DNA of 64,000 nt from Gracilaria domingensis. Lineage: Eukaryota > Rhodophyta > Florideophyceae > Gracilariales > Gracilariaceae. Of this stretch, positions 8,398 through 55,545 are shown piece after piece. Both the position numbers and the translations under genes were made by a program. The notes under the pieces were generated by a model. That model ran no database searches. It was not told the DNA's origin and worked only from the letters and a program-made list of their open reading frames with translations. Where the stretch lies: the NCBI GenBank assembly GCA_022539475.1, contig VCMS01000123.1:62001-126000 (forward strand). Direction: 5' to 3'. How positions within the stretch are numbered: position 1 is the first letter of the stretch; each line of letters starts with the position of its first letter.

Positions 8398-10090
8398 ATG
8401 AGGCGGGCCGTTTTCGCAGTGAAAGGAAGAGGGCTATCATTTCACAAAGCCAGGCACACATTTTGCCTCCCAGTTTCTTCCATCCATTATTGGCTTCATC
8501 GCATCAATTTGATCAACCAACCAGCCCGATCCAAACCTTATGCTTTGACCGACACTGAAAAAGAGCACATCGTACAGGTGCTAAATCACTATTCTACTAC
8601 CAATAAGCACATGACCAGAAACGACTTGAAAGACGAAATGCAGTTCCTAGTTCAGTCTTTTCCGCTTGAGCGACAACAGAAGCTACGCTTTAAGAGTGGA
8701 CGTCCGAGAGACGACTGGTGTAGGTCCTTTCAGGCGCGACATGAAGATGTTATCATGTATCGAAAGGTATCTGTTCAGAAGTCGCAAAGGTACATAGCCA
8801 CAAGTGCTCCTTACCCATCTGGCGAAGATATCGGAGGTTATACAAATGTACAAGATAGACCGTCGCAGACTATTCAATTTGGATGAAACCGGCTTATCGA
8901 TCGAGAAGAAGGACAATAAGACGCCTAGAACCCGACATTACGACTCCGTCGGAGATGTACCAGAGGTTCAGGGAGCGTCTTTCAAAAATATTTCTCGCGT
9001 TACCTGTCTTTCTTGTGTTTCCGCTGAAGGAACTGCCATTGATCCAATGTTCGTTTTCAAAGGATCGAGGGTGCGCACAATGACCGAAAATGACTCTGGC
9101 GATGTGGAACCGATTCATGAAGTGCTGCCTTGCGGGGCTCTCGTCGCTGCTCGTAGGAATGTTGCCGGCGTTGACGCGAACAATTTCTTCCAGTGGGCAA
9201 CACTTTTCGTTTCCAATACAGAAGATCTTCGTTCAAATGGTCGTCCTGTTTTGCTGATCTACGATGGCTACCGTAGCCATATGTCTGTTCACGTGTGTGA
9301 GCTCTTTCGATCAAACCGTGTCATAGAGTACCTGCTACCCGCGCACACTAGCTCAACGACGCAGCCGTTGAATGTGTCAGTGTTTTCGGCCATGAAATCT
9401 TCTTTTCGGGAGCTTCTCGCGTCATGCGTGGCTTCATTGCCATTATATAACAAAGAGTTGGACGTTTTTGACCTTTGTCGTCTCATTACGGAAGCGTACG
9501 GTAAAGCAATGACTCGTGAGAATATTCAAAGTGGATTTGTCAAAACCAGTCTGTGTCCCGTAGATCCCCACCACTTGCTTGGAGAGTACCGCCCGAGAAG
9601 CTTTGAGTGCTTTTTGGAACGTGTTGGTATAGATGAAATGATCAAGATGCTCCAAAAGAAGAGAGAAAAAACGCGGGGGGAGTTGCTGGGCACTGCAACG
9701 TTGACTAAGACGGGTTTTATTGGCAACAGTGAAGGTGTTGTTTTGACCTCTGACGCCGCGTACGCTTTGATCTCACAGCAAGCAGAAAAACAGAAAGCCA
9801 AAATGAAAGCAAAGAAGAAGCGTGAAGAGGCTAAAATAGCCAAGAACAGTGCGATAGTTGTTCAGAGGCGTGCCGCTAACATTGCGAATACGATAGAAGG
9901 TGCTCTGCGTCGAATCAAACGCTTTGGTAACATTGTGGCTGTTCCGCGATCGCTAGAAGAGCTTCGTCCCATTGCCCGTAACAATTTGGTCACCAGAAAT
10001 ATCACCGCAGTAGATCACACGACGCGTAGTATTGGGGACGACAATGTAGCGACAGAGGCTGTAGATACGACGGAGGCTGCGTCTGATTAA
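8398..10090 (+). pseudogene. Pogo/Tigger-like DDE_1 transposase, frameshifted
   Basis: Two overlapping frames make one protein of roughly 560 residues. The first, from ATG 8398, carries a psq/CENP-B-like helix-turn-helix region and a linker ending near RYIATSAP. The second continues from about 8804 with FNLDETGLS, the first catalytic Asp. LLIYDGYRSH supplies the second Asp. The third motif reads TSSTTQPLNVSVF, with Asn where pogo-type enzymes have Asp. A Lys/Glu-rich coiled-coil-like stretch near residues 330-350 of the second frame follows. The single-base frame change near 8800 and the Asn both argue that it is inactive. I could not find terminal inverted repeats. Confidence 0.8.
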
Positions 10091-15800: not shown

Positions 15801-16873
15801 ATTGAAAGATACCTCATACCCATCGGCAACCAATGCTGGACAAGATATCAGACAACAATCGAGGCCAGGAACATACAAAACATCCTTGAGAGTGAACCGT
15901 ACAGTTGAGTGATCATTACTAGCCACGCTAAGCTCGAGGTCTCCGACGCTGAGTGCTTTCACTCGCCTTCCATCGCCAAGGGCAATGGGTCTAGGCGAGA
16001 TCTGTCGAAACCATCGAGTCAGGGTGGCAGTATTTATCATGTGACTCGTTGCGCCAGAGTCCACAATAAAAGTCTCCTTCTTCATGCTTGCAACGTTCCG
16101 AATGACCATTGCGTACTCTCTTCGACTGTTGGAGTCGACAGAGACATTCATCTTCTTCCTGCAGTCTCGCTGAAAATGACCGAATTTGCCACAATTGTAG
16201 CACTGCACCGCGGCCAAGGTCTTCATAGCCTTCTCTGAACCACTATTCGAGGGAGATCTGCTTACTTCGTTCGATTCCCTGGTTTCATATTCCTGCAGAA
16301 GACGAGCCGTGGCCTTCTCCCAGGTCAAATCAACGTCTTTCATCGTCTGCAATGCGCTGATACCCGGACCATACGGGGATTCACTAACGCTGCCAAAGCT
16401 GGCCAGCAGTATAGCAACCTGCATTGACTCCGAGACTGCACTGTCCATTGCTTCAAGACGATTGAAAACAGACTCCATCTCATCTATGTACTCCGACATT
16501 GTCTTCTCCTCGCGATACCGTCTTTGGTGGAGCTCTGTTTGTAACTGAACCCTCGAGGCAACATTCTGACTGGCATAACGATCTCGCAACTTCTTGTACA
16601 TTAGATAGGGATTCTTGCGTTCTCCAGCAATCGAACGAAGCGGTTTGTCCCCCAGGCTTTGCACCAAAAATACATCCGAGCCTTTGAAACGTTGAGCTTG
16701 ACGTCATCTGGCAGAGCTTCGAAGTTACCGTCTCCTGCTGGGTCAGAGTTCACAATTGTGAGCAGTTCCTTCGATTCCAAAAGAGCCTCGAACTGCATGG
16801 TCCACAAAACAAAGTCCTCCCGTCGCTTCGCAAAGAATCTAGGGATTCTCTTCGCAATGTCTTCATCCGACAT
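12837..16873 (-). pseudogene. copia gag-pol polyprotein with two lesions
   Basis: About 1340 codons from ATG 16873. GAG ends in a zinc knuckle (CYNCGKFGHFQRDC). The protease has VDSGATSHM. The integrase shows the HERFGH..CVPC zinc region, a D with DNGPEYVG and TPQQNGTAER catalytic surroundings. The RT has QMDVKTAFLNG and the VYVDDILLVG active site. RNase H has STTESEYIAL and YEDNSGAI. Lesion 1: the frame shifts by one base at a T5 run (plus strand A5 at 16666-16670). Lesion 2: an in-frame TAG at 13299-13301 replaces the Trp expected in the RNase H motif DWAGDK. Everything between is open, so damage is recent, or lesion 1 is a homopolymer sequencing error. Confidence 0.93.
12854..12864 (-). 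other. Polypurine tract of copia element
   Basis: On the minus strand AAGGGAGGGAT lies directly against the 3' LTR, the expected site of plus-strand priming. Confidence 0.75.
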
Positions 16874-38111: not shown

Positions 38112-38945
38112 TTGCAGTACCGATAGAGCCTGGTGGGCAACGAGGAAACGCGGTCCACGTCAAAACGGGATGAATATTTTAGATGTTTTTACTTGATTTG
38201 AGAATAACAGTTTTAACGAGAAAAATGAAAACCATCGCAAATGAATAAGTCTTTTTCCAAAACGTTCGCCACATTTCAAAGATGCATTACTTCAAAGAAG
38301 GGATCGGAGATGCCTCGCGTGGCAACGAGACACGTCTGCCACGCATGGACATTTCGACACATGTGCGAAAGTGAGCTAACATTTTTCTGACACATGGTCA
38401 TATGTGTGCTGTGTTGGAAAATCATGATTGGCTTCTTGAAGCAATCATTTCGCACGCGGAGCGCGCCGCAAGTGCGCTGCGCATGCGCCATGCGAGTCGC
38501 GCAGCTGCTGTGCGTTGGCCAGTTGCCAGCGCGTGAACGCCTGGCAGGCGCTGCTGGCGCGCGCCACGAACGTCATTCTCGTTCTTTCAAAGCTTTTGTG
38601 CCTTCCTACAGAAAGTACAGCTGTCACACGAATGTCCAGCAATGGCGCGCGACGCGCGCTGGCCGATGGCCTCCGCTGGCAGCCCTCCTTGTTGCCCCCC
38701 TTCTGAACCGAGTGTCCATTCCTGTCTCTCCCCATGTGCACATGCCATCCTGTCCCAGTCTTTGTCCTTTAACCGCAAATCATCAATGCATCTTCTACGA
38801 CATCTTCTTCGTCACAGAACAACTAGTGATCCCGTTGATAAGCTTGTCAAATGCGCATCTGCTTTCGTCCTTGCTCGCATTTCCAATGCAGCTCTACACT
38901 TTTGGCGCCACAGCGCCCACTGATTCAGCTCTCGAGCAGCTCATG
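38112..38945. other. 5' region of the Cys-rich gene
   Basis: The frame of the next gene is open through here from 38394, but its composition (many Arg/Ala/Cys, no domain) and the TATA box at 38946 argue it is promoter DNA rather than coding. Confidence 0.4.
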
Positions 38946-38953
38946 TATTTAAG
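38946..38953 (+). promoter_or_regulatory. TATA-like box
   Basis: TATTTAAG 72 bases before ATG 39018. Confidence 0.5.
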
Positions 38954-39017
38954 AGACACCAGCGTCGTCAACAGCATGCGCTTCACGTCTCAACTCTCGC
39001 ATCCAGCGCATCCCAAC

Positions 39018-40199
39018 ATGTCTTTCTCCCGTCTTGCCCTCATTTTCGCCCTCTTCTTCTGTGGCGCGCTAGCCGTCCCTCCTTGCGAAACAGGGTACCA
39101 TCTGTATGCCGATGGACGCTGCGTCAAGTGTTCACCAGGATTTCGTGATGCCGGCTATGCTTGTCAACCGTGTAATGCTGGCACATATCAGCCGGAAGCC
39201 GGTCAAGCCGAATGCCTTCCCTGTCCTCCAAACACAGACTCGCTCGACGAAGCAACAGAGTGCATCTCCTGTCCAGAAGGACAAGCGCTCTTGCTGACGA
39301 ATGAGTGTGGAACGTGTCCACCCGGCAAATACCTCGGCTTCCATTCCTGTGACCCATGTTCATCGGGATTCTTCAAAGCGGGAGAAGGGTTTGGTCCATG
39401 TTTGCCTTGCCCGAGAAATTCGCACTCTCTGCCTGCCGCCGCCGAATGCATTGCTTGTCCTGAGGGCCAGACGATAATGGAAGATGGATCCTGTGCCCAG
39501 TGCCCCGCTGGGACTTTCTATTCATCGTATGATTTCAGGTGCGAAGATTGTCCCACAAACACATACACGGACTCTCCAAATATCATGTTAGGGTGTTTCA
39601 CGTGTGGTGGCAACTCGTTTTCCCCGCCAGGTTCGGCGGAATGTGTGGACTGTCCCGCTGGGAAGGTGTTTATCGAAAGTTCGAACAGTTGTGAAAGTTG
39701 TGAGCCAGGGCAGCGCTACGACCAGAATGCTCAAATTTGTGATGAATGCAGTTACAACCGGTTTACCGTGTATGAAAATGAGCCGATCTGCAGGCATTGC
39801 ATGCATGGAACCTTTTCCCGACCCGGGTCGACGATGTGCTTCCCATGTCCGTGGGGACAGGTTTATCTTGCTGAGACGGATGCGTGTGGAGAATGTCCGA
39901 TTGGTGAATACGATAGCCACGCCGCACGCTGTTATTCGAGCAACTACTACTACTACGACACACCGATGTCCGAGCCGGTCGAGCTGCCCATTTCTTCGCC
40001 GGAGCCATTCGAGGGAGTGTTTGCCTCTCCGGAGTTATTCGAGGAGCCTAATTCCATTGTCTCCGCCGACCCGACTTGGGAGCTTCCAGGAGAGCCAGAA
40101 CCTTGGGCAATGCCTAGTGCATCACCCGCACCGATTGAGAATCGCGTTGAATCGGAATACGAAGAGGAACTAACTTTTGACTTTGCCGATGAGCAATAG
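39018..40199 (+). CDS. Secreted GCC2/GCC3 (ephrin-receptor-like) Cys-rich repeat protein
   Basis: The start at 39018 is chosen because it begins a signal peptide (MSFSRLALIFALFFCGALA) after the TATA box; the frame is open 208 codons further upstream. 393 residues. About residues 22-305 consist of seven or so repeats of roughly 45 residues with the pattern CP.G.......C..C..G.......A.C..CP, as in GCC2_GCC3/Ephrin_rec_like and TNFR-type modules. The C-terminal 75 residues are acidic, Pro/Ser/Glu-rich, with a Tyr run (SSNYYYYD) and repeated SSPEPFE-like units. No membrane anchor is visible, so it is probably secreted or wall-associated. Such proteins bind ligands or matrix. Confidence 0.85.
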   Translation: MSFSRLALIFALFFCGALAVPPCETGYHLYADGRCVKCSPGFRDAGYACQPCNAGTYQPEAGQAECLPCPPNTDSLDEATECISCPEGQALLLTNECGTCPPGKYLGFHSCDPCSSGFFKAGEGFGPCLPCPRNSHSLPAAAECIACPEGQTIMEDGSCAQCPAGTFYSSYDFRCEDCPTNTYTDSPNIMLGCFTCGGNSFSPPGSAECVDCPAGKVFIESSNSCESCEPGQRYDQNAQICDECSYNRFTVYENEPICRHCMHGTFSRPGSTMCFPCPWGQVYLAETDACGECPIGEYDSHAARCYSSNYYYYDTPMSEPVELPISSPEPFEGVFASPELFEEPNSIVSADPTWELPGEPEPWAMPSASPAPIENRVESEYEEELTFDFADEQ

Positions 40200-41034
40200 G
40201 TATTTTATGAGTCGTTTTTTTTGAAAACAAGAACTGCAATTTTGCAGCGCAATTGGTACCAATTTTTGCATTCTTCTTTTGCCTGAAAAACTGTCATTTT
40301 CGCCAAGTTTCTTTACAAATACCTCTCGTTTGTCAACTCGCTCGGAGCAGGGCTCCCACAACGCAGCAAAACTTCATCAATTCTGACCCGAACCAATTCT
40401 ATTTGTATCTTGGGAATTTTCCTTTGCTGCAGAATACAAGTTCGAAATGTTGGCGTGAACTGAAAATTGCTCAAACTTTGCCGGAAAAAAAAGTAAACTA
40501 TTTGCTTTGAGTTTGGCCCCTTGAGTTTTACGATTCCTTTTCCGTAAGTTCGACAGGTGTCTGGCCGGACACTTTTGTAAAATCGACGATTATCCAAATG
40601 TGCACAAATCTTTTTCAAACCTCTTTACGATCAGGAGTTCAGTTACATGTAGGAGAGTACTAAGATTGCCACTGGCTGCAGATTTGGCAACGTTGTGACT
40701 TGTCCATTGGGACAAGTGTACGCCCCCACTACGCACGGCGAGCGGTGCGGCGAGCCCGCCGCCACGCGCGCGCCACGCGCTGACGCCGCTACCGCGGAGG
40801 CGCGGCGCCGTATTGTTCGGGTTTGGCGCTCAGCGAATCGCCAGCGGCGGCCACCCGCCGCGTGTCTCGCACGCGCACGGCGCCGCGTAGCGTGCGCGTG
40901 TGCCGCGCGCGCACGCCCTTGCGCACGTCAGCAACGTGTGGCGCCCGCGATGTTTGTCAAGCGCCAGTTGCGAAACCGTACAACGCGCGGACGGCGTCGC
41001 TCTTTCTCCCGCGTTGCTCACATCAATTCAATCT
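40200..41034. other. Spacer turning GC-rich
   Basis: Up to about 40700 nothing coding. From 40720 the GC content rises sharply and all frames open up, which marks the start of the solenoid-gene cluster; no domain is readable until 41035. Confidence 0.4.
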
Positions 41035-41290
41035 GAGGCAGCTGCTGGAGGATGGCGCCAGCGGAGTGGCGCCGGACGCGCGGCGCGCATGCGAGCTGTA
41101 CCAACGGGCGGTGGATGAGGGGGGCCATGTGAGTGCCATGTACAATCTGGGGCTGTTGCTGCTGAGTGGCGCGTGGGGAGTGGGCCAGACGCGGTGCGCC
41201 CGCGCGCGCTGTGGGAAGGGGCGGTGGGTGAGGCCTGTCGGTGCGATGGCAGGTCTGAATAAGTTGGCGAGCGATGGCGCAGAATAAATG
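41035..41290 (+). pseudogene. Sel1-like repeat fragment
   Basis: Reads LLEDGASGVAPDARRACELY then QRAVDEGGHVSAMYNLGLLL and LSGAWGV, the helix pair pattern of a Sel1 (TPR-like) repeat. The next unit continues in a different frame (ALWEGAVGEA) and stops, so the copy is broken. Neither a start nor other units are preserved. Sel1 proteins are adaptors. Confidence 0.65.
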
Positions 41291-41829
41291 GGCCAACAGA
41301 TGGCGGCGGCGCGCTGTGAGTGACAGTGTGTGGTCGGCGACGGTGAGGGTAAATGACACAAAGCGCAGGGAGCGTTGCGGGCGTTGACAGTGTTGGAACG
41401 CTTTGAGAGCGTGGCCCGATGGCCTTGCGCTTGCACTGGCAGTGACCATGGCTCGAGCACTGCGTGTAAGGGCTGAGGTGGCGGCACACTTGAAGTTCGT
41501 TGCTGCGCGGCCTCAGCGTGTGCGAATTATTCGAATTGTTGCCGTTTGCGGCCACGGCGCGTGGCAATTGGGAGCAGCTGGGCGTGAGCGCATTGCGTGA
41601 GGCGGAGCTGCTCGGCGCTCAAGGCACAGAGTGGCTGCGGGCAGTGCGACGCGTTGGTGCGAAACAACGCTTGTTGCATTTGGGCCAGGCAAAAACCGGT
41701 GCGATGACGAGCGAGAAGGCGATTTTGGTTCGGGCCGTGGCTGTTGTACCTTCTCGAAAACACACGCAATGGGGCGGGTGAGCGGCAGAGCGCGGGTGCG
41801 TGTGAGGAGGTCGTGGGAATAACGATGGG
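41291..41829. other. GC-rich sequence before the ankyrin gene
   Basis: A frame at 41500-41781 has helical composition (LREAELLGAQGTEWLRAVRR) but no family. It may be another solenoid-gene remnant. Confidence 0.3.
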
Positions 41830-41836
41830 TATAAAA
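41830..41836 (+). promoter_or_regulatory. TATA box of the large ankyrin gene
   Basis: TATAAAA 54 bases before the ATG at 41890; a near-consensus box in GC-rich surroundings. Confidence 0.7.
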
Positions 41837-41889
41837 CCGCGCGCCCTGGGTTCGCGGCGGCGCGAGGCGCGGCGGCGGCGGCGGCAGCG

Positions 41890-43761
41890 ATGGGCGCCGA
41901 CGAAGAGCTGCGCGCAGCGGCGGGACGCGGCGACGTGCAGTGCGTGCGCGTAGCGCTGGCGGCCGGCGCCAACGTCCATTGCAAGAACGGCCAAGAAAAC
42001 ACGCCGCTTCACAACGCCGGAAATGAGCAAGTCGTGCAAGCGCTGCTGGCGGCCGGCGCCGACGTCCACTGCAAGGACCGCGAGGGATACACGCCGCTTC
42101 ACTACGCCGCTGGGATGGGACGCGAGCAAGTGGTGCAAGCGCTGCTGGCGGCCGGCGCCGACGTCCACTGCAAGGACCGCGAGGGATACACGCCGCTTCA
42201 TTACGCCGCTGGGATGGGACGCGAGCAAGTGGTGCAAGCGCTGCTGGCGGCCGGCGCCAACGTCCATTGCAAGAACGGCCAAGAAAACACGCCGCTTCAC
42301 AACGCTGGCAACGAGCAAGTGGTGCAAGCGCTGCTGGCGGCCGGCGCCGACGTCCACTGCCAAACTGGCCGTGGAGACACGCCGCTTCACTACGCCGCTG
42401 TGATGGGACGCGAGCAAGTGGTGCAAGCGCTGCTGGTGGCAGGCGCCGACGTCCACTGCCAGAACGGTCATGGAGACACGCCGCTTCACAAGGTTGCTTC
42501 GAGAGGACGCGAACAAGTGGTGCAAGCGCTGCTGGCGGCCGGCGCCGACGTCCACCGCAAGAACGAGAACGGAAACACGCCGCTTCACGAGGCCACTTTG
42601 CGGGGAGGCGAACAAGTGCTGCAAGCGCTGCTGGCGGCAGGCGCCGACGTCTACTGCCAGAACGGCCATGGAGACACGCCGCTTCACAACGCCGGCAACG
42701 AGCAGGTGGTGCAAGCGCTGCTGGCGGCCGGCGCCGACGTCCACCGCAAGAACGAGAACGGAAACACGCCGCTTCACGAGGCCACTTTGCGGGGAGGCGA
42801 ACAAGTGCTGCAAGCGCTGCTGGCGGCAGGCGCCGACGTCCACTGCCAGAACGGCCAGGGAGACACCCCGCTTCACAACGCCGACAACGAACAAGTGCTT
42901 CGAGCGCTGCTGGCGGCCGGCGCCGACGTCCACTGTCAGAACGGCCGTGGAGACACGCCGCTTCACAAGGCTGCTTTGTCCGGAACCGGACAAGTGGTGC
43001 AAGCGCTGCTGGCGGCAGGCGCCGACGTCCACCGCAAGAACGAGAACGGAAACACGCCGCTTCACGTGGCTGCAAGCAAAGAGCAGCTCCGAGACACGCT
43101 AGGGGTACAAAGAGAAAACGTAAATCCCTGGCTTACGGCGTTGGCGCTGTGGCGCGCCGGCGCCGACCCGCTCCAACGCAACAAAAAGGGCCAGACTCCG
43201 CTGTCACTACTTCCGGATGATAGCTTTCTGCACGACGAACTGAATGACTCTCCGCTCACGCAACTGGAGCTTCTCTGGCTCTTAGCCCAAATATCCCCCA
43301 TCACACAGCCACAGCTAATAGCCGCGCTCAACGCCGACCACATTACCTCCTTCTCCGACTTTGTGCTCGCTCACCACCTGCTGCTGCTCGCAGTGCGCCA
43401 GCTTGGTCTCACGCGCTCGCAAGTCGCAGCCATCGGCGGTGGTCTCCATGACATTCTGCACAATGTGTACCATCTGGGCACTAAACTGGCTCTCACACAA
43501 CGCCAAAAACGCTGGGTCTCGGAAATTGTTTCATACGCCAAAAGCGTTGGCCTCATCGACCCAAAACAATCCGACCAACTGCACATCCACTTCGATGACG
43601 ATGAAATGCACCCATTTTTCAGAAAAGTCGCCGTTCAATCGTTCCTCGCCTTTGCAAGCAATGTTTCTCTGTTGTACTACAGGCTTCGACTTCGAGCCGA
43701 TCAAAGGAAAATTGTCGACTGCCGAAAAAACAGTGCTAGCAACCGTTCAAAAAGATCGTAG
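41890..43761 (+). CDS. Ankyrin-repeat protein, N-terminal part (12 nearly identical repeats)
   Basis: 623 codons from ATG 41890. After a capping unit, about 12 ankyrin repeats run to residue 395, with consensus TPLHxAAxxGxEQVVQALLAAGADVHC. Eight units are 33 residues. Four (first, fourth, eighth, tenth) are 30 residues with NAGNEQ replacing the usual AAxxGREQ. DNA copies are almost identical, pointing to recent expansion or gene conversion. A degenerate unit with WRAGADPLQRN closes the array, as in the second ankyrin gene. Next comes a helical region (AAIGGGLHDIL, KRWVSEIVSYAKSVGLID). At about 43680 the homologous frame moves to another frame, and this one ends 70 bases later. Intracellular protein-binding scaffold likely. 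Confidence 0.85.
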   Translation: MGADEELRAAAGRGDVQCVRVALAAGANVHCKNGQENTPLHNAGNEQVVQALLAAGADVHCKDREGYTPLHYAAGMGREQVVQALLAAGADVHCKDREGYTPLHYAAGMGREQVVQALLAAGANVHCKNGQENTPLHNAGNEQVVQALLAAGADVHCQTGRGDTPLHYAAVMGREQVVQALLVAGADVHCQNGHGDTPLHKVASRGREQVVQALLAAGADVHRKNENGNTPLHEATLRGGEQVLQALLAAGADVYCQNGHGDTPLHNAGNEQVVQALLAAGADVHRKNENGNTPLHEATLRGGEQVLQALLAAGADVHCQNGQGDTPLHNADNEQVLRALLAAGADVHCQNGRGDTPLHKAALSGTGQVVQALLAAGADVHRKNENGNTPLHVAASKEQLRDTLGVQRENVNPWLTALALWRAGADPLQRNKKGQTPLSLLPDDSFLHDELNDSPLTQLELLWLLAQISPITQPQLIAALNADHITSFSDFVLAHHLLLLAVRQLGLTRSQVAAIGGGLHDILHNVYHLGTKLALTQRQKRWVSEIVSYAKSVGLIDPKQSDQLHIHFDDDEMHPFFRKVAVQSFLAFASNVSLLYYRLRLRADQRKIVDCRKNSASNRSKRS

Positions 43762-46094
43762 CGACAAGCAAGATAAGCCCACATTCGACCTCCTGGACAT
43801 TGCCTCAGTCAATCTTGAGCTTTTGTACTCTTCGTTGCAGAAGAGAGGTCCTGGCAAAGCTTTCATAGGCGCCCTCGCATCCTCTGTCCTTGTCATTATC
43901 CCGATTATGGTTGCGGAATTATTACCAGTCCCGATCTTTCAAGGACTGGACAACCATGGTTTTCCCCTACATAACCCACTCTCTGTCATGGAGCTTTTGT
44001 CCGTGGACATCTTCGATTTTAGCTCCATCTCAATGCTCTTTAGCAATCAATTTCTTCCCACACTCGGATGGGGAGGGAGGTCAGAGAAATGTTCGCGAAG
44101 TTGTGGAGGGAACCCGGTTCAAGGAACTCTCTCATCTTCAACAGCAGCTCAGTGCAGCCATCTTGGAGCTCAAGGACACTCAATTTTACTCGGAGAAACA
44201 ACTCACCAACCCTTCAGAAGCTCTGTGTAACATTCTCAAAGACGCACCACTAGCTTCTCCCGAGCTTTATCTCAAGCGCAACCTACGTACGCTACCGCAC
44301 CTACGCCTTTGCACCTCTTCCGTTTTTGAACACTGGCTGTTGCTTGCTCTCAAAAATTTTCGATCCGAACATTCGTCCCTCTCTTCCGGATGGACACACA
44401 ATGTGGAATCCCAGATTCCGGCCACCTCAACGCAGATTCTTGCATCTGCCATGGTATATTGGGCTTCGGTGACATTTGCGCACGCTACAAAATTGGATGA
44501 CAATCAGTTTCGTGTGCTTTTGCTCCATTCTGCGCTACGTATCTTCCGAGATATCAAAGATTTCTCAATGCACGCCGAATATGTTTTGAAATTGCTCTCG
44601 AGAGTTCTCTCCGACGACTTGAACTTACTTCATCAAAATCTAACACTGATCGAGGAAAAACAGCTCATGACACGAGTGGGTGCTCACATCCCGTCGCGTA
44701 TGCACTCGCTTGACGACGACGAAAAAAGAAAAGTGCGAAAGGCTTGGCAGCTCTTAATTCTTATGCAAATAATATCTCTTGGGAACGATCTGGAGCTTGA
44801 CGAAGAAGACTTTTCTCTCATCTCGGAGTTAGATGCAGCAGCAGAGTTTCCTTTTTGGGACCTTGAAAAGCAGTTCGAAGATCATGGAATTTACGTTCAA
44901 CCTATTCCCAAGTCCCAAGTCCCAGACCCTCTCAGCTCATCAGATTCTGATGTTTTGACTTTCAGCAACCAGAAAAGCTCTCTCTTAGTCTATTTCGAGT
45001 CAGATCGCTTAGGTGCCGTTGGGTTCTCAGTTCTCTCTCTAATTCTGGTACCTGGTAAGTCAGACCTGCGAGTGCTTTTGGCGGTGATGCGAAAAATCAA
45101 ATCGTTTCAAAACTGCCTCCTGTCAGAATTTACAAATGAAAATGGGTTAGATTGTCAACCTGATGACAGAAGAGGAATATGTACAGATAACGAGGATCCA
45201 CAGCTTAAATCGGCTGTCCCCAGCAGGAAAGTTTTTGTTTCTCTCGAATGGTTATATGAGCTAAAACTCTCGCACGACTTTGTCGCAGTGCATGGAACCG
45301 TAGGAAGTGCAGGGGTGTTGCTGGGAAATAATGTACCTTCAGCACTTCAAGATTTCCTTCGCTCAACAGCAAGACAACTGTCTGAATGTTTTGGAATTTT
45401 AGGTGGACCCGCTGGTGCAAGTAATGAACAGCTTGGAACTATGAACAATCATGTAAGAAGTCAAGATCATTCTTTACCTGTATTTTTGGATGGTGAGAAC
45501 AAGCTTGTATACCAGTGTCCTAGAAGATCCTTTTGGATTTGCATAAGTTCTGTAACAGTTCAGATTGGTTTCTTTGGAATAGAACTACAGGCTGCGCAGA
45601 GAGATAATGTTAGGCGATTTTCTCTGGTAGGCTTTCAACACTTTATGACTTTCTCGTCTCCGAAAAGTCCGGGATTCATGACTAGGGTACACTTTTTGGA
45701 GAGGGCCCTGAGAGAGAGAGAGTTGTTCCCAAGAGGGCACAATCAAAGCTTGTTGAGAAACATAATCAGCGAGGACGTGTCTTCCTTTGCACCATGTGCA
45801 CTATTTCAAGATTTGGATTGTCGTTTACGTTTCAGAGCTCTACAAAAAGGAAAACTGCCGTTCCCAACTCAGCAGGTATTGGAAAATGATGATTCACAGG
45901 CGCCCAACGGATCTGTGTGCTTTCAAGATAAATTGTTTGCAGCAGAAAGCTCGGAAAGTAGATGTACGCTTCCTTTTCGAATTAAGAATACTGATGAAGA
46001 AGAAGTAATGCAAATCTGTGGGCGTCGTGGTCTAAGCGATATTGGAACTGAGGAGATCAATCTTAGCACAGAGATAATTTTCGACATTGTCTAA
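43683..46094 (+). CDS. C-terminal part of the large ankyrin protein, two frame changes
   Basis: From about 43683 a second frame reads GFDFEPIKGKL...SVNLELLYSSLQ and then a hydrophobic segment AFIGALASSVLVIIPIMVAEL, until about 44080. From there a third frame (open from 43890 to the TAA at 46094) gives about 670 helical residues with no recognised domain: FKELSHLQQQLSAAILELKD, the LLLALKNF region, ALRIFRDIKDFSMHAEYVLK, an acidic DDEKRK stretch, and a Ser-rich end. The hydrophobic segment corresponds to KLIPIAGGAAAHALVAGLEV of the second ankyrin gene. I see no good GT-AG pair that restores the frame at either point, so these are indels, errors or unusual splices. Total protein would be near 1,400 residues. 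Confidence 0.6.
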
Positions 46095-47264
46095 ATTCGT
46101 ACATTTGGATTTTTATATTGGCTTCTCACCTGTGTTGTGATTATCAATCTCTATTGAACTCGTAAATGGAACTCGTTTAGGTGTGATCGCTATCTTTCCT
46201 CAACATTGCCACCCAAATTACGTAAAATTCTTCAACTTCGTCTGCGAGCGGAGTACTGTACTAGATTGGTGGGCATTCTGCTGGTAAGTGCGGGATAATT
46301 CAACATTTTGACATCATAAACTAGATGCAAAACTAATAGACTTTGTTTGACAAGGTTAGATGCTTCTGCTTATTTCCATTGAAAAAATGTATAGATATGT
46401 TTCTCCAAGTAAATCATCGTTGCAGTTTCTTTATTAGATCACATACTTGGATTTCTACAAGAAAACGAAATTGTTTGCGAAGAAACTGGACAACGCAGCA
46501 TTTCTTTCCTATATATGTCAAATGTCTAATACATCTTCTGTTGTGGAAGCATCTAGAAGCCTTTTAGAAGCAACTGGAAACTACTTCGTTCTAGAATGTT
46601 CTATACAACATATACGTAGAAATGCTTTATACTATATGATAGAAACTATATAGAAGTCTAGAATACTATAGAACTTTATTGAAACAGTATAAAAGAGTAG
46701 AAGAGAACTCTCGTTTGACGGAAGATAAAAGTCCAGCCGAGTGTCAGTGATTAAAACCACTTTTGTTTATTGTATGCTATCAGTTTTTTTAAACAAAATG
46801 GCAAAGTTCTAAATATAAACGCCCAAGTTCAGGAGTGTGCCAAACGGCATGGTTGAAGTGCCAGAAATCAACTTGTTGCTATCTTAAAACAAGAAAATTT
46901 GTAGAATAGCTCTACTTTAGATTTAGATTGATCAGCCTCAGTGTGGCTAGGAGCTTTGCTATGATACTTCATTTTCAAGTTGACGAATGCAGAATTGACT
47001 ACTTGTGTCCTTTGCCAAGATAACTGTCCTCATCGCCAAATCACGAAGTGCCCCGGGCCCACTGTGTCAAGCTAAGAAGAGCAATGTGCATGTGTAGCTC
47101 ATTTTTGCTCCCTCCCAAGAACACTGTGGGGCTTGGCTCGCAATGGCAGCTGTTCGATGGACACGATTGTTTATATCAGAGCTGAAAGAAAAGATGGCGC
47201 GTGTTGGCAGCGCGCAATGCGTGAGATGATGAGTTTGATGTTTTTTATTCGTCAAGATTCTGGT
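46095..47264. other. Spacer with orphan promoter-like island
   Basis: No gene. 46550-46700 is a promoter-like block (see the regulatory entry) with no coding frame downstream on the plus strand. The rest is AT-rich. Confidence 0.45.
46589..46695 (+). promoter_or_regulatory. Heat-shock-element-like array plus TATA box
   Basis: TTCTAGAATGTTC at 46589-46601 has three alternating nTTCn/nGAAn units, a heat-shock-element pattern. TATAAAAG follows at 46688-46695. TAGAA occurs eight times between 46550 and 46680. No gene follows, so it may be a solo LTR or a SINE-like promoter. Confidence 0.4.
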
Positions 47265-48790
47265 TTAATCCGGACGGACAAAACGCTTGAGACGATCACT
47301 GCTGCAGGAGACAGAATCGCAAACCTTTGTCGCCATTGCTCCGCGGGTCGCAAAAGAAGCCACAATGATAGCGTCCGGTTGCGCGCGTCGGCGAGCTCCA
47401 ACTTGGGCGACGGCGCCCAACACAGAAGCAGCTGGTGCTGCGCGGGGGGTGCGGCACACATGCCGAATGCTGCAGCCGGCACAGATGCGTGGAGCGATCC
47501 GCTCCACCTGAAACGGCCGCCACCGGAGAAGGAAACGGTGCGTGGTCACGCGCGACGCCACGTGCGACACGGCCACCACGTGGTCGACGTATCCCCCCGC
47601 CATGCGCGAACCGTCGGCTGACAGCGGCACGCACAACACACACGCCCGACAGCCGCGCCGCGGCGCACGTCCCACAAACGCGAACTCCCCCCCTCGTCGT
47701 CTCCCCGACGCGGCGCGCGAGCCGTCGGCGCACTGCGCACCGCCCCACACGGGGCGACGGAGCCGGAGTGCACGTGCCACACACGCGCACCGCACCGCCA
47801 AAGCCGCCGGACGCGAGCCGCCGCGCGTCCGCGCTGAACGATAGATATCGCCCACACGGCGTCCGAGTGCGCGCGCAGCACGTGCGGCCGCAGCGCGCCG
47901 CTGGCGCCGTCCCACAGCCGCACCGTCCCATCCCGCGACCCCGACGCAATCCACCGCCCGTCCGCGCTCACGCACACCCACCAAATCGCCTTCTCATGCG
48001 CGTCCCCACCGCGGCTGCCGCTCTCCGACTCCGCGCGCCTCACGTACCACGCTCGAACGCTTCCGCCCCACGTCCCGACAAGCCCGACTGAGCCGTCCTC
48101 ACTGGCTCTCGCGTACCTCACTCTGCCACTCACATGTCCAACTGCTATCGGACCAACTCTGCTCTCATGCACCCACACGCCAAAGTCCCCACTACCCGTA
48201 GCCCACAAAACCAGTTTTCCTCCTTCGGCGAACGCCACGCTTGCCCCAGTTTGCCCAAGTCTAACAGAGCTCACACAACCTTCGCTTTTTGAATTGCACA
48301 CTTCCATCGTTGCTTCCATCGACCCAGTAGTAATCAATTCTCCATTCGCACTGAATGCCGCACAAGACGCGCTGTCATCGCTGTCGTCTTTCCAATAACA
48401 GTTTCCTCTTCCCTCGCAGCATCCCACTTCTTCACATTATTATCCTCGTGCACATACACAACCATTCGTACATCTCTTGACAACGCAGCGTCTCTAACCC
48501 GTTTCATCTCTCTTTTCAAACTGCTTCGAGTGCCATCATTAAGGGCACACTTCACTCTTTCCAACTTCTCCTTTATGCCAAACCAAGATCACCAACTCAC
48601 TTCCAGGTTTTCGGATACCTGATACTCTCTCCCCCACTTGTATGCGCTCCATAGCAGCCCCGCCCGCAGCTGCCAGGAACCATTTCTTTGGCTTCAACCG
48701 TTGTCCTTTTGTCTTCTCCGCAATCTGTTCTACTTCCTCTTCGAACCTTCGCGTTGTGTTACTCTTCTCTGAATACGTTATCACTGCTGA
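47265..48790 (-). pseudogene. WD40-repeat gene relic
   Basis: Several minus-strand frames in succession read as WD40 blades. From the 5' side: VRDAALSRDVRMVV then EDNNVKKWDAA (48540-48430), SCAAFSANGELITTGS, VCVSADGRWIASGSRDGTVR then LWDGASGALRPHVLRAHSDA, and in the next frame FSADARRLASGGFGGAVRV, then CADGSRAASG and LSADGSRMAGG in a third. At least four frame changes are needed, so it cannot make a propeller as it stands. GC-rich, same family as the relics at 25390 and 30390. WD40 propellers are protein-binding platforms. Confidence 0.75.
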
Positions 48791-49080
48791 AAATATGCCT
48801 CGTGCGGGTTTTGTCCCACTGCATCCTGACTCAGTCTCGAAGCCTGCACAATCACTCCCTGTGTACTCTTCTTCTCTTCCTTCGTTGCTACGTCCAAGCA
48901 GTCGAGTGCCGTCTGCCCAGTGTACAGGTGTACAACGTCATTCTCAGCAGCCAGTATTCCGCTCTGAGTAAGGCGCGTCATGATCCACTGAGGCTTCACA
49001 AAAAGCCTAACCAGTTGCTCTCCAGCTTCTTTCAAAAGTCGACACACGTTGCTGTCCAGATATTCGTCTTCGTCCTCCAC
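48781..49080 (-). pseudogene. Ankyrin-like remnant upstream of the WD40 relic
   Basis: A 99-codon frame with GILAAENDVVHLYTGQTALD then CLDVATKEE, which matches the end of an ankyrin unit. It is preceded in another frame by 49032-49292. It may be the 5' part of the WD40 relic gene or a separate fragment. No start can be assigned. Confidence 0.4.
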
Positions 49081-49292
49081 AGTCCACCACTCCCTTCCTT
49101 TCCTTCCGTAGTATGGTTCACAGCTGCTCGCGTAACGGTAGTATCTCTCCTTTCTTCATTTTCGTCCGACGACCAGCAGCAAAATCGCTTAAAGTTCAAC
49201 CGTGGCCCAGAGGTTTCAGTTTCTCTCTCTTTACCATTCAGAGAACTCATTTGGTCGAGCTTCAACAGCATAACCGCCATCCGGCCGAGCAT

Positions 49293-50009
49293 TAAATCTT
49301 ACCATTGCTGTCACAATTAGAACAAACACGTGCACAGGTGCACACGTAAGACACGATACGCGCTACGCCTTCCCTTCTTTTCTTTTCTTTGCCATTCCGC
49401 GCCCCTCCTGTGAGCACGTGAGCACAGCTGGGCATGTGCGGTATTCGACAAGTGCGCCACGTTGAATACGCCTTTGCGTGCCAGGTGTCCCACCTGGCCG
49501 ATCTGGCGCAGACACGAGCGTTCAGGAGCGAAATATGCGGCATACCGGACAGGCGCCATTGCGTGATGCGGCTGCACGCGCTCGGCCCGGAACGAAGCGG
49601 CTCAGATTGCTTGACGTCACTGGAAGCATCGCCCAACGGCGTCGCACGAAGCGTGCTGACGCAAGCAGGCGTGTCATGCGCCGCGGCGCTTCTGACACTC
49701 AATGCCGTGCAATCGGGCCCCACATGAAGGGCTTGCGACACTCGCATGGCCACATCACCGGGCTGAACATCACTGCTGCTCGGGACGCGGCGCCAAAGGC
49801 GCCTCGGAGGGACAGCCACGAGACAACTGAATTGCACCTGGCGAAAAAGAACGAAAGGCATTCTGAGAGGCATTCTGGCTGGGACTTGGCATCGAAGGTG
49901 CCGGAGGGCGAGAAGGAAAGTAACGGCGCCAGTGCCAGCGCTATATCACAGAGCCAGAACTGCCGCAGCTGCCGAAAGTCCAGCGCAGAATGTGCATCCG
50001 TCGCCAACC
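49293..50009. other. Spacer before the second ankyrin gene
   Basis: Open frames on both strands (for example 49292-49873 minus) lack domains. TATATCA at 49942 lies 68 bases before ATG 50010 and may be the core promoter. Confidence 0.35.
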
Positions 50010-52722
50010 ATGTCGTATTCGTTGTGCAGACAGCTGGTTGCAGCCTGCGAATCTAGAGATATCGAGCGATTGCGTCAGCTCCTGGACAGCCACATTGACT
50101 TGAACTCAGAGAGGTACGTTCGCGATGCATTTCACGCAACGAACCGCGCGCACCGAATTGTGCCAAAAATATGTTTTGAACCACTTGAATAGTAACAAGA
50201 GTTCTCTCTTCTCTCGTGCCTAGGTTGTTTTGTGCACTTGCGTTGCGGCAAGCTGCTAGCAACGGCCACCCAGAAGTGGTGAAAGAGCTGCTGCAACGCG
50301 GCGCCGACGTGCACAGCGCAAACAAGTACGGTCAGAAAGCGTTGCATATCGCTGCTATACATGGAAGAACAGAAGTTGTGAAGGAGCTGCTGCAACGCGG
50401 CGCCGACGTGCACAGCGCAGACAACGACGGTCGGAACGCGTTGTGTTTCGCTGCTGCCAACGGACACACAGAAGTTGTGAAGGAGCTGCTGCAACGCGGC
50501 ACCGACGTGCACAGCGCAGACAAGTTCGGTCGGAACGCGTTGCATAGCGCTGCTGCCAACGGACACACAGAAGTTGTGAAGGAGCTGCTGCAACGCGGCG
50601 CCGACGTGCACAGCGCAGACAACTACGGTTGGAACGCGTTGCATATCGCTGCTATACGGAACAGAAGTTGTGAAGGAGCTGCTGCAACGCCGGCGCCGAC
50701 GTTCACAGAGCAGAAATGCGTGGTTGGAACGCGCTGCACTTAGTCTCTGAGGCGGGAAAAAACGATGTCGCCGTCATTCTTTTGCACGCAGGAATCGACG
50801 TGCAAAGCCAAACTAGTCGCTACCAGTTATTTTCCGGCTTTGATACCGCGCTGCATTTGGCAGCGCGTCAAGGGCACTTAGAAATGGCCGCCATGCTGTG
50901 GCGCGCCGGCGCAGACCCGCTCCAGAGGAATTTCCGACGAAGCACAGCGTGTGCGCCGCTCAAAGAAACCGACCGCCAGCTGTACAACCAGATGCGCTCC
51001 GGACGCGTTAGGCACCCGAGATTGCCTCCTCTTCCTCAATCAGACATCAACCCCTCTCCTTCCGTCAGCCCTTTACAGGACGCTCTTCAGTCGGTTCTGC
51101 ATGGCTCTTCCGTCGCCTCGGAACTTTGCTCCACTCTCATACAGAAGCAAAACTGCTCTCGCTCGCTCCCAGAATGGAACGCCGCTCACACCCTTCTCGT
51201 ACTTGCCGTCACTGATGGTCAGATCGACGCAGAAGGTCCTGAAGGCCAACTGTATTTCTGGAGAGATCAGTTGTATTGCACCGTATCCGATCTATCCATA
51301 ACCAGTGAGCAAGACAAGCTCCATGTGTTCAAATGCCTTCGCAGAGCTCAACAACTCAACCTCATTCATTCAGCCGATGCCTACATTCAAGGAATGCACG
51401 TCATGCAGTCTGTCCATGCGGAGCTGTTCGTGTTGAAAAAAGCATGCATTACGCTTTTTGAACGCCTTCTTGTTCTGGAGTTCTCTCTAGAAGATCTGCG
51501 AGCTTCATTTGAGGCGTATCGCCAGCAGCAGTTGTACAGCAACTTGATATCCATAGCGCTCAAATTGATTCCAATTGCCGGAGGAGCGGCCGCTCACGCC
51601 CTCGTGGCCGGATTGGAGGTATATGGTGAATTATCTGGCGCGGACGTTGTCGAATACGCCCTATCGGCAGCCCAAACCATTCTAGAGGAAGGAAATTTCT
51701 CCAGGCTACCGCGTGAGCAACAAGCGCAGATTCTCAATGTTTTTGACGAATTCGGGTACACCACAGATCAAGTTCAATCTTTGTTCTCTAACCGCCAGAA
51801 TATTGATGGTACTGCAGTTAGACCCGGCTCTGGAGCTTCGCCTGATTTGGAGTCACACTCCTCTACTGATCAACGTCTTCATAGCCCTGCTGTTTTGGAA
51901 GCCCCTCCCATGGAGTCTGCAGATGCCACCGCAAGTTTCTCGCATCCAAATGCTTCCAACGACAGTTGTTCCGAACATCCTATCCCCAGTGAAACTGAAT
52001 TCAGCAGCAATATTTCCGACGGTAGTGAATCTGATCAAACAGTTTCCGTTCAGCTGGATTTCGTTGATCCTGAATGCAATGAAGAACAAAATAATCATTA
52101 TGAGCTACAAACGCAAAACACTCTAAACCGATACGATTCAACATTGGCAATTACTGGCTTTGCGAGACGCTGGGCCCATTTCGTTCTGAACTCAAACGAT
52201 TGCAACGAACATTTGTTTACGATTTGGAATGACTGTTTGACGCGCTTTCTTGAGGATCAAAGCGTTTCACCAAACAGCTTAAGAACAGGATCTTCATCAG
52301 ATATCCTAATCTTGAACGAGGTCGCTTCGAGATTTATCAAAAGTAATTTGGAACCATCGGCATTGAAGATAGGATTTGCATTCCGAATGGCGCAATTTAT
52401 TCATCAACACTCGCAACATCTCCCCCATGAAATGAATAATGAAATTGGACATGCAACAATCAATGAAACGGCCGACAAATGGACGCGGTTCATTTTAGGA
52501 TCAAGAAATGAAGATGAAGAACTGCATGCTCGCTTGAATAAGTGCCTCATTGTCGTGCTCGAACAAGAGAGCATCTCGCCGCAATCACTGAAGTTTGGAT
52601 TGGAATCAGACATTTGTGAACTAAAAGCAGCAGCCCTGGAGCGTATTAAGAACGAGTTGCGAGAGGATATGAAAGTGGGCTATCGCTTGAAGCTGACAGA
52701 ACTTATGGAGCATCGCCTGTAA
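50010..52722 (+). CDS. Second ankyrin-repeat protein, one intron, one frame break
   Basis: Exon 1 (ATG 50010 to 50113) encodes SYSLCRQLVAACESRDIERL and the start of a cap. After the intron, exon 2 gives four near-identical ankyrin units (EVVKELLQRGADVHSAD, with NALHIAAIHGR-type helices) and a fifth. Near 50660 five bases are missing and near 50692 one is extra relative to sister repeats, so the frame changes and the rest (from about 50716) is open to TAA 52722. That part has two more ankyrin units, the WRAGADPLQRN cap, a helical region with a hydrophobic segment (KLIPIAGGAAAHALVAG), a Ser-rich linker, and a tandem pair of ~85-residue modules at 52149-52400 and 52469-52720. Roughly 860 residues if the frame were continuous. 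Probably an intracellular adaptor. Confidence 0.8.
50114..50223 (+). other. Spliceosomal intron
   Basis: 110 bases, donor GAG|GTACGT, pyrimidine-rich acceptor CTCTCTTCTCTCGTGCCTAG. Removal joins AG+G into an Arg codon and leads directly into the ankyrin frame. Confidence 0.85.
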
Positions 52723-53889
52723 AACATGTCAGTTTTGTTGCAGCGGGACCATGCAGCTCAAAGTCATTCTTGACGAGGTTAACGATTTCCTTGCCCAGAA
52801 ACCAATTTCATTGTGGTAAAGGCTATCCTTATTGTCTTCAAGCAAGAAGCGATGGTGATTAAAGTGCATCATGCCGCGCTTCAACCAGTTGCATAGGGGG
52901 AAAAGCTGTCATAGACCTCATGCCGAGCGTCAAAGTGAAACATTGAGACAGCTTCCTTGTAATCTTGGCCCCTTTGTTGAAATCTCCATACGGTACGAAG
53001 CGTACCCTATAGGACACGATAGGGATGGAAATCACAATCTGAATCGCTCCCTGCCGCGCAACCGCTCGCATGGGCTTCCAACGGTGGGAAATCATGGCAT
53101 ACAACCAAGAAAGCGCCCTATGACAAACACGGCAATGTAGGAGGCATGTCGGTTGTAGACCACAGAAGAAAATTGCTGGCGACCCGAAGGATACGCGGAC
53201 TGGAGCGCAAACTGCGTCAACTTTTGCCTTGTTTTCGCAAACGATTGCTGACCACTACCCTTCTACACCGTGCGTTCCCCATCGCTTGCTTCTCGCTTTT
53301 TGCGCCCCTTCCACTTGGGGTGTGCCATGGGTATCTTAACTCGGCCTCCGCTTTCTTTTTCCACACATGGCGCAACCTTTTCCTCGCTCCACTCCAGCTT
53401 TTTCGATTCGAGGTACACGTTCAACACGTGTGCACTGTGTGTGCGAGTACACGTTCACCACGTGTGCACTGTGTGTGCGAGTACAACGGGTACAACATTC
53501 TTGCCTGCCAGCGTGGAACAACTCATCAGTCTTGTGCTGCAGCTGGCGATCCAGTCAAGACAAGACACGTGGAAGACAAATTGGGCCCGGCCCAAGACGG
53601 TAGACCAATTTTTCTTTCTTGATGTCATAGTGATTGTCGACATGGCTTCTAAGCCGGCAAAAACCGAGAAACGCACTCGTGTTTGGCGGAGCTCCCTTGT
53701 GGCACACAAGACGAGAAGAGGAAAAAGCAATCTATGGCCATAGTTCTTATTTCGCCAATATGCTCACTTGTTTGCGGGACAGTCGCAAATCGATTCAGTT
53801 GCCCCCTTTTGAGAAAAACTCACTCGAATATGTCTGACGGTTTGCCCTTCGCCAACGAGTCATTGTCGAAAACGCACCGCCCCCGTCCA
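52723..53889. other. Spacer, no convincing gene
   Basis: Frames at 52859-53104 (minus) and 53146-53743 (plus) lack domains. It includes the tandem repeat at 53413-53480. Confidence 0.35.
53413..53480 (+). repeat. Tandem repeat, 2 x 34 bp
   Basis: Two copies of a 34-base unit starting GTACACGTTCAMCACGTGTG differ at one position. Each contains the E-box-like CACGTG. Confidence 0.8.
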
Positions 53890-54912
53890 CTAGTCCAGCG
53901 TGTGATACACCACACGCATTGGCATGAACAGGCCCTCTGTGGCTCCTCCAAATACGGTTTCCGCAAAGTAAGACACGACGGCATGCGAAATGGAACGCGC
54001 CCCCCTATGCACCGCACTCAATACGTCAAACTTCAGAATATCCAGATTCGGAGCGGTCGTACCGCTGAACAGATTATCGCCAAGGTACTCGCCATCGATG
54101 TAAAAGTACTCGCCCTTGTACGCATCACCTTCGAACGCAACCACTGTTGTCCTGGCCACCGACGTACACTGATTGCCCGAAATGCAATCCACGTGATTCT
54201 CATACACGTCCTCCGGGTACGTAAACGTGAAGTCGTCCACGCAGAGGTTCACGCGCGCAGCTGGAAGATCGCGCCGCTCGTACACAACGGCAAGCGACCA
54301 TGCGGCATACGCGCTGTTCAATTCGCAGTAGGGTTCGTCGTTATCGAACCAGAAGTGGCCAACCGTGTACAAACCGTTGGTGTTCACCGCGGCGGTCACG
54401 TCCGCCCAGGCGGCGTAGAACCTGACAAAGTTGCTGTATCCGTCCACATACGTCCTGTTGGCCGCCACCACCTCGCCGTTCAAAGAGGCTGTGACGTGCC
54501 TCTCCACGAGGTGCCCGGACGCAGACCAGTACAGAATGGCCTTCTTGACGCTTGCTCCCGGCGGGATGTTCAAGGTGGCCGAGCTCGTCTCCGAGTGCTC
54601 GCAGTTGGGGCGGTCCTCGCTCTGGCTCTGAGAGTTGCCAATCACCACGTAGTCGCCAGGCCCGTCAAACGAGAAGCAATCGTTCTGGCGACATGGCGTC
54701 TCCTTCAGCAAGGCGCGAGCAGGCGCTGCGTTGGCCTCGCAGCTCGCTGCGAGATCGCGGTGTCGTTCGAACGCAGTTTCACAAAACTGCCCAGCGCGGA
54801 GCGGCGCGCGCGGCGCCGCGTGGATGTGCGAGGCGGCGGCGGCGGCGAGACGCAGAAGGCACAGGAAGGCGGACAGGCGCGCGAGTAGCACACGCGCGGC
54901 GACGCGGCGCAT
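53890..54912 (-). CDS. Secreted beta-rich protein of bacterial-like appearance
   Basis: 340 residues from ATG 54912. The N-terminus is an Arg/Leu/Ala-rich signal peptide (LLARLSAFLCLLRLAAAAAS). The mature protein reads GDYVVIGNSQSQ, KKAILYWSASGHL, ASLNGEVVAANRTY, FVRFYAAWADVTAAVNTNG, LYTVGHFWFDNDEPYC, AWSLAVVYERRDLPAARVNL and CVDDFTF. This series (IGN, A.LYWS.SG, V..NG..V.A..., FADVT, Y.V, W.L.VVYE, R.V.L) is known to me from secreted beta-sandwich domains of bacterial surface proteins. Six or more Cys could make disulphides. The GC-rich 5' part contrasts with the average 3' part. Transfer from bacteria is possible but not shown. Likely extracellular. Confidence 0.75.
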   Translation of the reverse strand: MRRVAARVLLARLSAFLCLLRLAAAAASHIHAAPRAPLRAGQFCETAFERHRDLAASCEANAAPARALLKETPCRQNDCFSFDGPGDYVVIGNSQSQSEDRPNCEHSETSSATLNIPPGASVKKAILYWSASGHLVERHVTASLNGEVVAANRTYVDGYSNFVRFYAAWADVTAAVNTNGLYTVGHFWFDNDEPYCELNSAYAAWSLAVVYERRDLPAARVNLCVDDFTFTYPEDVYENHVDCISGNQCTSVARTTVVAFEGDAYKGEYFYIDGEYLGDNLFSGTTAPNLDILKFDVLSAVHRGARSISHAVVSYFAETVFGGATEGLFMPMRVVYHTLD

Positions 54913-55545
54913 GACGGCGGACAGGAGCCGCCGGCGCTGGGGCGCGGCGGCGAGACGGCGAGCTGCGGCCGATGGTCGTACCTTCGCCCGTCGAGCGCAA
55001 GTCTGCCATCGAAAAGACGTTTACGTGCGCCCGTTTCGCTGTTTGTTGCCACAAGCTCATTGGGCACAAAGTTGTTTCCGGTCGAATTGCGGCGGATTAT
55101 AAAAGATTCAAAGTATTTCATCAAATTGGTGTATTTCGGAAATAAGACAACTTTTGGAGCGCTGTTGAAGACTCGTGTTGCAAGGTTACTTTGGTTACAC
55201 ATACGAAAAAGGAATACACTGTATAGATTTATAGATTTTATTTCTCTTCGAAACATCATATACTTTATAATAAAGACTCCTGTGTTTCTGCGAACGTCGT
55301 CACCAACGCTACCGTCCAACTGAATGCAGCCGAAGCCTTTTCCGCCCATCTAGCCCTTCTTGACGCGCTCAGCTAGGTTACAGCGCCGGGCTTTGAACCC
55401 CGAAGCTGCCAGCAATGCGCTTCACTGAAGAACTATTAGACCATGTTTGTCAACCACGTAACCTCTCGCCGCAACGACATCGAAAGCCGTTCTCCCGCTC
55501 CCTGCTTCAACATAAACCCCTCATCATCCTCATAATTTCCACCTC
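54913..55545. other. Divergent intergenic region
   Basis: GC-rich up to 55000 then AT-rich; lies between divergent genes and must hold both promoters. TATAAAAG at 55088 (plus) is far from the ATG at 55546. Confidence 0.4.

Follow-up and report, generated by a model that had tools for sequence, protein, structure and literature searches.

What does a run of solenoid genes in a seaweed contig represent? The stretch in question, the whole of which we call the window, is 64,000 nucleotides of the Gracilaria domingensis genome assembly (C123:62001-126000; 77.9 Mb in 680 contigs, which the C-numbers denote), and it holds a Sel1 fragment and two ankyrin genes with a WD40 relic between them. The original prediction set this cluster beside the recognition domains of fungal NOD-like receptors (NLRs; NOD, nucleotide-binding and oligomerization domain). 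A search of the genome for phycobilisome linkers gave 14 matches, among them a frame of 878 residues on contig C680 that holds three such domains; the host is therefore a red alga, and the fungal frame does not apply. We found that both ankyrin genes belong to a large family whose conserved part is a C-terminal core, absent from the original prediction. Our best explanation, to which we assign a probability of about 0.5, is that both are degenerate genes of a red-algal, receptor-like family that has expanded and lacks a NOD, and that the relic lying between the two is the truncated end of a separate gene of NB-ARC-WD40 type. The features concerned, in window positions, are these:

40991..41284 (about), plus strand: Sel1 fragment; one stretch matching Pfam Sel1, E 7.2e-6, 26.8 bits, below the cut-off of 30.7
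41890..43200, plus strand: ankyrin gene 1 (type A), N-terminus and ankyrin array; Pfam Ank_2 1.9e-129, Tandem Repeats Finder (TRF), unit pattern
43258..44150, plus strand: type A core domain of gene 1; tblastn of the L005, L007 and C156 cores, three frames
44151..46094, plus strand: remainder of gene 1, a C-terminal region of unknown kind; within the open reading frame 43890-46094
47297..49293, minus strand: headless NB-ARC-WD40 relic; tblastn, three frames
50216..50740, plus strand: array of ankyrin gene 2 (type B), five units by anchor; Pfam Ank_4 1.7e-41, anchors 50285-50676
50716..52722, plus strand: remainder of gene 2, with the last two ankyrin repeats, the core, an acidic Ser-rich linker and two related helical tails (about 85 residues)
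51070..51795, plus strand: type B core domain of gene 2, 242 aa; alignment of eight sequences, hydropathy, ratio of nonsynonymous to synonymous substitution rates (dN/dS)
47735..55077, no strand: segmental duplication with C87:11.7-19.9 kb; pieces 81-95% identical

Gene 1 extends over 41890-46094 and gene 2 over 50216-52722, and strong Pfam ankyrin matches support both as predicted. The array of gene 1 (TRF 41955-43065), given as 12 units in the original prediction, comprises 11 by pattern and about 13 by reading, the latter including the first and closing repeats, with some units short. Its units measure 33 and about 30 residues, and it closes with the shared repeat '..ALWRAGADPLQR'; the gene 2 array lies at about 50219-50710. 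Tandem-repeat scores were 1142-1437 for gene 1 and 644 for gene 2. The high unit similarity claimed for both arrays was recovered when repeat identity was computed, with a mean DNA identity of 0.83 in gene 1 (seven full-length units scored) and 0.80 in gene 2 (four units); mean amino acid identity was 71-72%, below the 85% measure used in a study of fungal NLRs (PMC4986451; this and the other papers cited were available to us in part).

Frame breaks, likewise anticipated, are present in both genes. The core of gene 1, 54% identical to that of L005, was matched by tblastn in three frames (43285-43542, 43769-44065 and 44079-44150). The gene ends in a 734-residue open frame that has no Pfam match and is 34% identical to C156 and to C71; in the C156 relative this region stands in frame behind an ankyrin array and core, in a frame of 1666 aa, and the C71 relative has no ankyrin match. 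Gene 2 carries a single frame change near 50.67-50.71 kb, at about the fifth of its units, after which two more repeats, the conserved core, the linker and the two tails follow in that order.

Broken as they are, both genes show the architecture of one family, of which they are distant members: the ankyrin array stands at the N-terminus, ends in a closing repeat common to the family, and is followed on the C-terminal side by a homologous core (240-290 residues) and variable tails. Paralogues are abundant in the genome, and all comparisons between loci given here are between paralogues within it. Type B returned 23 matches at 16 loci, with the core whole at 10 (C123, C87, three on C213, C297, C27, C45, C379 and C104), partial at four (C50, C259, C181 and C31), and matches to linker or tail only at two (C38 and C128). 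The type A core returned 25 matches at 22 loci, with the window copy at 54%; at 15 of the 22, core and ankyrin share one open frame (694-1666 aa), and on C73, C39 and C123 the ankyrin frame takes in the first part of the core. From 150 listed matches, out of 196 ankyrin matches in all, we also drew up 55 ankyrin loci manually; among the matches listed, 30 of these loci adjoin or hold a type A or type B match, C128 adjoining a tail only. In the open full-text literature, a scope that leaves out most subscription journals, we found no description of this family.

On C50 (L042) and C259 a piece of type B core plus tail lies in one frame with a stretch that resembles leucine-rich repeats (LRRs) by eye, the C50 frame having no Pfam match, and in the type B member L036 (C213c) one strong transmembrane-like segment (hydropathy 3.02) takes the place of the tail.

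The A and B cores are homologous. Profile comparison by hhalign gave 81.6% and E 1.1e-5 over 154 columns, and hmmsearch gave 1.2e-6 for L005 and 2.1e-6 for L007, the best of 600 shuffles reaching 0.031. The link needed three better type A cores: a comparison with two type A sequences gave none (1.3%), another early comparison was weak, and the third type A member, C156, gave no match alone (hmmsearch 0.5). A hydrophobic stretch rich in Gly is common to the two cores ('IPIAGG' or 'IPIVGG'; the gene 2 segment reads 'IALKLIPIAGG'). The type B core is constrained, with dN/dS of 0.13-0.26 in 28 of 28 pairs of eight cores, many dS values being near or above 1, and the type A pair L005-L007 gave 0.19. 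The core is apparently an unannotated domain, of which this one genome has whole or partial copies at over 30 loci.

Database matches to the core were coiled-coil-type or weak. Pfam returned HAUS5 at 3.4e-5 in one of three type A members and 0.021 at best for type B pieces; a search of the PDB gave a best E of 0.024, the coiled coils of myosin and of surfactant matching at E 0.02-1; and scans of viral and prokaryote contigs returned no relatives. Together with the fact that Pfam recognised no signalling domain in the window genes and paralogue pieces, the coiled-coil-type matches suit an ordinary multigene family of ankyrin scaffolds or adaptors with no part in recognition, whose near-identical units would come from neutral tandem duplication and gene conversion only. 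We regard that explanation as possible, at somewhat less than an even chance; the constraint on the core argues against it, and the behaviour of the arrays bears on it from both sides.

Array length differs between close copies. The gene 2 array has five units in the window versus 16 in the C87 segmental duplicate, where the expansion consists of a two-unit block (lag-2 comparisons 96-98% identical in 7 of 14, lag-4 comparisons 99-100% identical in 4 of 12). A 66-residue block is present three times in C156, and identical units repeat in C213c. Beside 11 type A cores that are 73-100% identical to the query, ankyrin extent ranged from 528 to 2652 bp, or about 5 to 27 units among the matches listed, each extent being the span of listed ankyrin matches from the core and not a count of units. 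Highly conserved solenoid units with a changing unit number are a feature of comparisons between paralogues, and the length differences and the broken copies agree with the original prediction. The roughly fivefold variation in extent among the type A paralogues is a second point against ordinary scaffolds.

Selection was assessed at the exposed ankyrin positions, which we take, after designed ankyrin libraries, to be 2, 3, 5, 13, 14 and 33; dN/dS was estimated by simple counting, units were bootstrapped, and the model takes in no gene conversion. An excess of replacements there is clear in one well-sampled array and is not family-wide: C213a (15 units) gave 1.52 (1.15-2.06) at exposed positions and 0.41 at the rest. 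L005 gave 3.76 (2.39-6.1) from 4 units only. Intervals include 1 for C87 (1.48), C213c (0.65) and C27 (0.51), exposed sites are saturated in C297 and C156, and C213b, outside the set of eight family arrays, gave 0.64 at exposed positions and 0.36 at the rest. Against the refuting condition set in the original prediction the outcome is mixed: repeat number varies between paralogues, but only C213a and L005 keep dN/dS at exposed positions above 1 over the whole interval. Ordinary scaffolds would fit the seven of eight family arrays whose exposed dN/dS interval includes 1, and fit less well the three (C87, C213a and C297) in which exposed positions exceed the rest with a ratio interval above 1.

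At the locus itself, the state of the genes makes it fairly probable that the window is a graveyard, in which the two ankyrin genes and the NB-ARC-WD40 tail, all of them left by segmental duplication, are dead and have no function here. Frame changes occur in all three. Over 583 codons, 36 nonsynonymous changes and 13 synonymous ones separate gene 2 from its C87 copy, a dN/dS of 0.80 that is indistinguishable from 1 (P 0.49); the C87 copy has several frame changes and its WD40 relic 4 stops, so that both copies of gene 2 look decayed or decaying, and the gene 1 core fragment gave 0.43-0.71. The frame changes may be assembly indels, yet 51 of 88 NB-ARC places in the same assembly have open frames of more than 1,000 codons. 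Set against decay throughout are the relatives with long open frames and the distribution of changes in the gene 2 pair, with 3 nonsynonymous and 5 synonymous in the core versus 33 and 8 outside it (Fisher P 0.023, for a comparison chosen post hoc). Dead copies at this locus are compatible with a receptor-like family in the genome.

The relic between the genes has a different origin. It runs from 49293 to 47297 on the minus strand, corresponds to the region behind the NB-ARC together with the WD40 repeats, and is homologous to NB-ARC-WD40 genes in three frames. By tblastn it matched L058 (C232; a 1431-aa frame that also holds an NB-ARC) at 50% (E 1e-66) and 46% (E 1e-71), and L054-L056 at E 8e-45 to 3e-49; matches of L062, which stem from an antisense frame, are left out of account. 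The NB-ARC part is missing, the best NB-ARC match in the window being E 0.062, and gene 2 starts about 0.9 kb past the break. Judged by this homology, the relic is the remnant of a separate NB-ARC-WD40 NLR-like gene, a truncated tail and not a working member.

The WD40 relic of the original prediction and its tie to an NLR-like family were thereby upheld, whereas of the ankyrin-like remnant assigned to the same place there was no sign: three ankyrin queries gave nothing at E<=0.1 between 46.0 and 50.15 kb. We also reject a local spread of the WD40 relics: for the proposed copy at 25.4 kb the best match covered 33 residues (E 0.001 in a target of 6 kb), and around 30.4 kb the best value was E 0.24. 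The statement that no NB-ARC is visible is right for the window and wrong for the genome, where 88 of 96 NB-ARC matches exceed the cut-off and one more does so together with its neighbour, and wrong also for the window contig, which carries NB-ARC matches outside the window at C123:10532-11125 and C123:23099-23761. NACHT was found at one place in the genome. In a Pfam scan of four NB-ARC loci, WD40 repeats were clear at three, of which one has TIR and APAF1_C as well, and weak at the fourth, whose sequence ends early. As to the NB-ARC genes themselves, L050 (C13) combines TIR_2 (1.2e-15) with NB-ARC, APAF1_C and WD40, L049 (C173) has a TIR-like N-terminus by eye, and C70, C74, C206, C148, C28, C220 and C522 each carry several NB-ARC matches, some with internal stops.

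An NLR architecture for the ankyrin genes did not hold up. Among the matches listed there is no ankyrin-NB-ARC or ankyrin-NACHT fusion, in the pieces given to Pfam neither domain was found in the same protein as an ankyrin array, and the 96 NB-ARC places coincide with none of the 23 type B and 25 type A core places. It is accordingly very improbable that the ankyrin genes are detached sensors of fungal-type NLRs that formerly carried an NB-ARC or NACHT: although the solenoid types are the same and the repeat dynamics resemble those of fungal NLR sensors (PMC4986451), in the members read the ankyrin array starts near the N-terminus with the core behind it, the genome has a single NACHT place, and among the rows listed none of the four scanned NB-ARC loci shows ankyrin. 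Core profiles searched against the N-terminal parts of eight NB-ARC genes found no homology, the six best rows being shuffles. Clustering of the two kinds of gene was also rejected, since an NB-ARC gene stands within 20 kb of 4 of the 55 ankyrin loci versus 1.9 expected (P 0.12; contig ends ignored; among the matches listed). With no listed fusion and no significant proximity, the simplest account of the window cluster is that members of two large families are neighbours by chance.

Under our preferred explanation of a receptor-like family, the ankyrin array would be a putative ligand-binding surface, and its specificity would be altered by duplication or loss of blocks of 33 or 66 residues and by the replacement of exposed residues; the repeat dynamics described above and the precedent of fungal NLRs (PMC4986451) suggest both. 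The core, to judge by its conservation and hydropathy, may relay a signal, perhaps through self-association or through contact of its hydrophobic helix, rich in Gly, with a membrane. The likeliest biological role is in immunity or self-recognition, and we put forward only tentatively that the family is an immune or self-recognition class. Equally doubtful, at present, is the wider proposal of a second large class of red-algal intracellular receptors beside the NB-ARC-WD40 NLRs, which would lack a nucleotide-binding domain and couple an ankyrin array that recombines and diversifies directly to a conserved helical output domain not described before, its glycine-rich hydrophobic helix perhaps at membranes, for pathogen or self recognition.

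Several results weigh against the receptor-like reading. The window arrays gave exposed dN/dS of 1.26 (0.48-2.91) and 0.77 (0.26-1.77), both with wide intervals, and the lower bound exceeds 1 in one of the eight family arrays (C213a), the other such case, L005, belonging to a separate set. Because L002, L003, L005, L007 and L008 proved to be family members, true outside controls are few: L001 gave 0.64 (0.34-1.13), L004 0.53 (0.48-10.26) and L006, itself weakly similar to gene 1, 1.32 (0.99-3.99). Type A cores other than the L005-L007 pair are less constrained, at 0.31-0.41 with C156 and still higher, as given above, for the window fragment. Pfam found no NB-ARC, NACHT, TIR or death-fold in both window genes, four paralogue pieces, three type A cores and one C50 frame, so that the search of the C-terminal regions for NB-ARC, NACHT and death-fold domains for which the original prediction called came back empty for these pieces, and sequence profiles returned no death-fold or known effector in core or tails. 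An AlphaFold model of the core, built from the single window sequence, reached a predicted local distance difference test score (pLDDT) of 42.5. The lack of significant proximity between ankyrin and NB-ARC loci points the same way.

If the family is a receptor class, it would show how a solenoid that changes fast can be joined, without a NOD, to an output domain that is conserved, and it would supply a concrete gene list for work on disease and allorecognition in a seaweed lineage. Even if its members are not receptors, the core adds an apparently unannotated domain to the genome.

Other features of the window and its surroundings were recorded. The predicted Sel1 fragment is present as the one weak Pfam stretch listed above; its closest relatives sit in frames of 1422-2055 aa elsewhere, and the Sel1 repeats at C123:60260-60529, immediately to the left of the window in an open frame of 1356 residues, are a possible source of it. 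The segment 60207-64000 is a high-copy repeat whose main part occurs, with 83-98% identity, at no fewer than 38 other places (39 of the 773 candidates were scored); it contains an inverted pair of about 0.85 kb and resembles a mobile element with long inverted ends. By eye, 13299-16667 (minus strand) encodes a Ty1/copia-like polyprotein and 8804-10090 (plus strand) a CENP-B/pogo-like transposase frame. A secreted-looking Cys-rich protein with ephrin-receptor/TNFR-like repeats lies at 38394-40199 (plus strand; Pfam Ephrin_rec_like 2.4e-16).

Intracellular recognition in red algae has been described in terms of NB-ARC-WD40 proteins and NB-ARC proteins with tetratricopeptide repeats (TPRs) (PMC6928737, PMC8307928), and multicellular red algae have two NB-ARC families (PMC8307928). 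The NB-ARC-WD40 combination is known from Pyropia and Porphyra, and three such Pyropia genes rise in red rot disease (PMC6928737). The window WD40 relic shares the architecture of these proteins (PMC6928737, PMC8891106, PMC8307928), from which it differs in lacking the NB-ARC part and in its broken frame. Fungal NLRs with conserved WD, ankyrin and TPR sensor repeats, such as Podospora HNWD (PMC4986451, PMC12222747), share with the ankyrin genes near-identical solenoid units, changes in repeat number and a variable, presumed binding face; the Gracilaria genes, unlike them, have no NOD, carry the ankyrin array at the N-terminus and an unrelated core at the C-terminus, and belong to a red alga. 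In brown algae, the ROCO and NB-ARC-TPR candidate receptors (PMC11378527) diversify by exon shuffling of LRR or TPR units around a GTPase or NB-ARC core, whereas the Gracilaria family has in-frame ankyrin arrays in long open frames and a core of unknown kind; like them, it is an algal candidate that diversifies a repeat domain.

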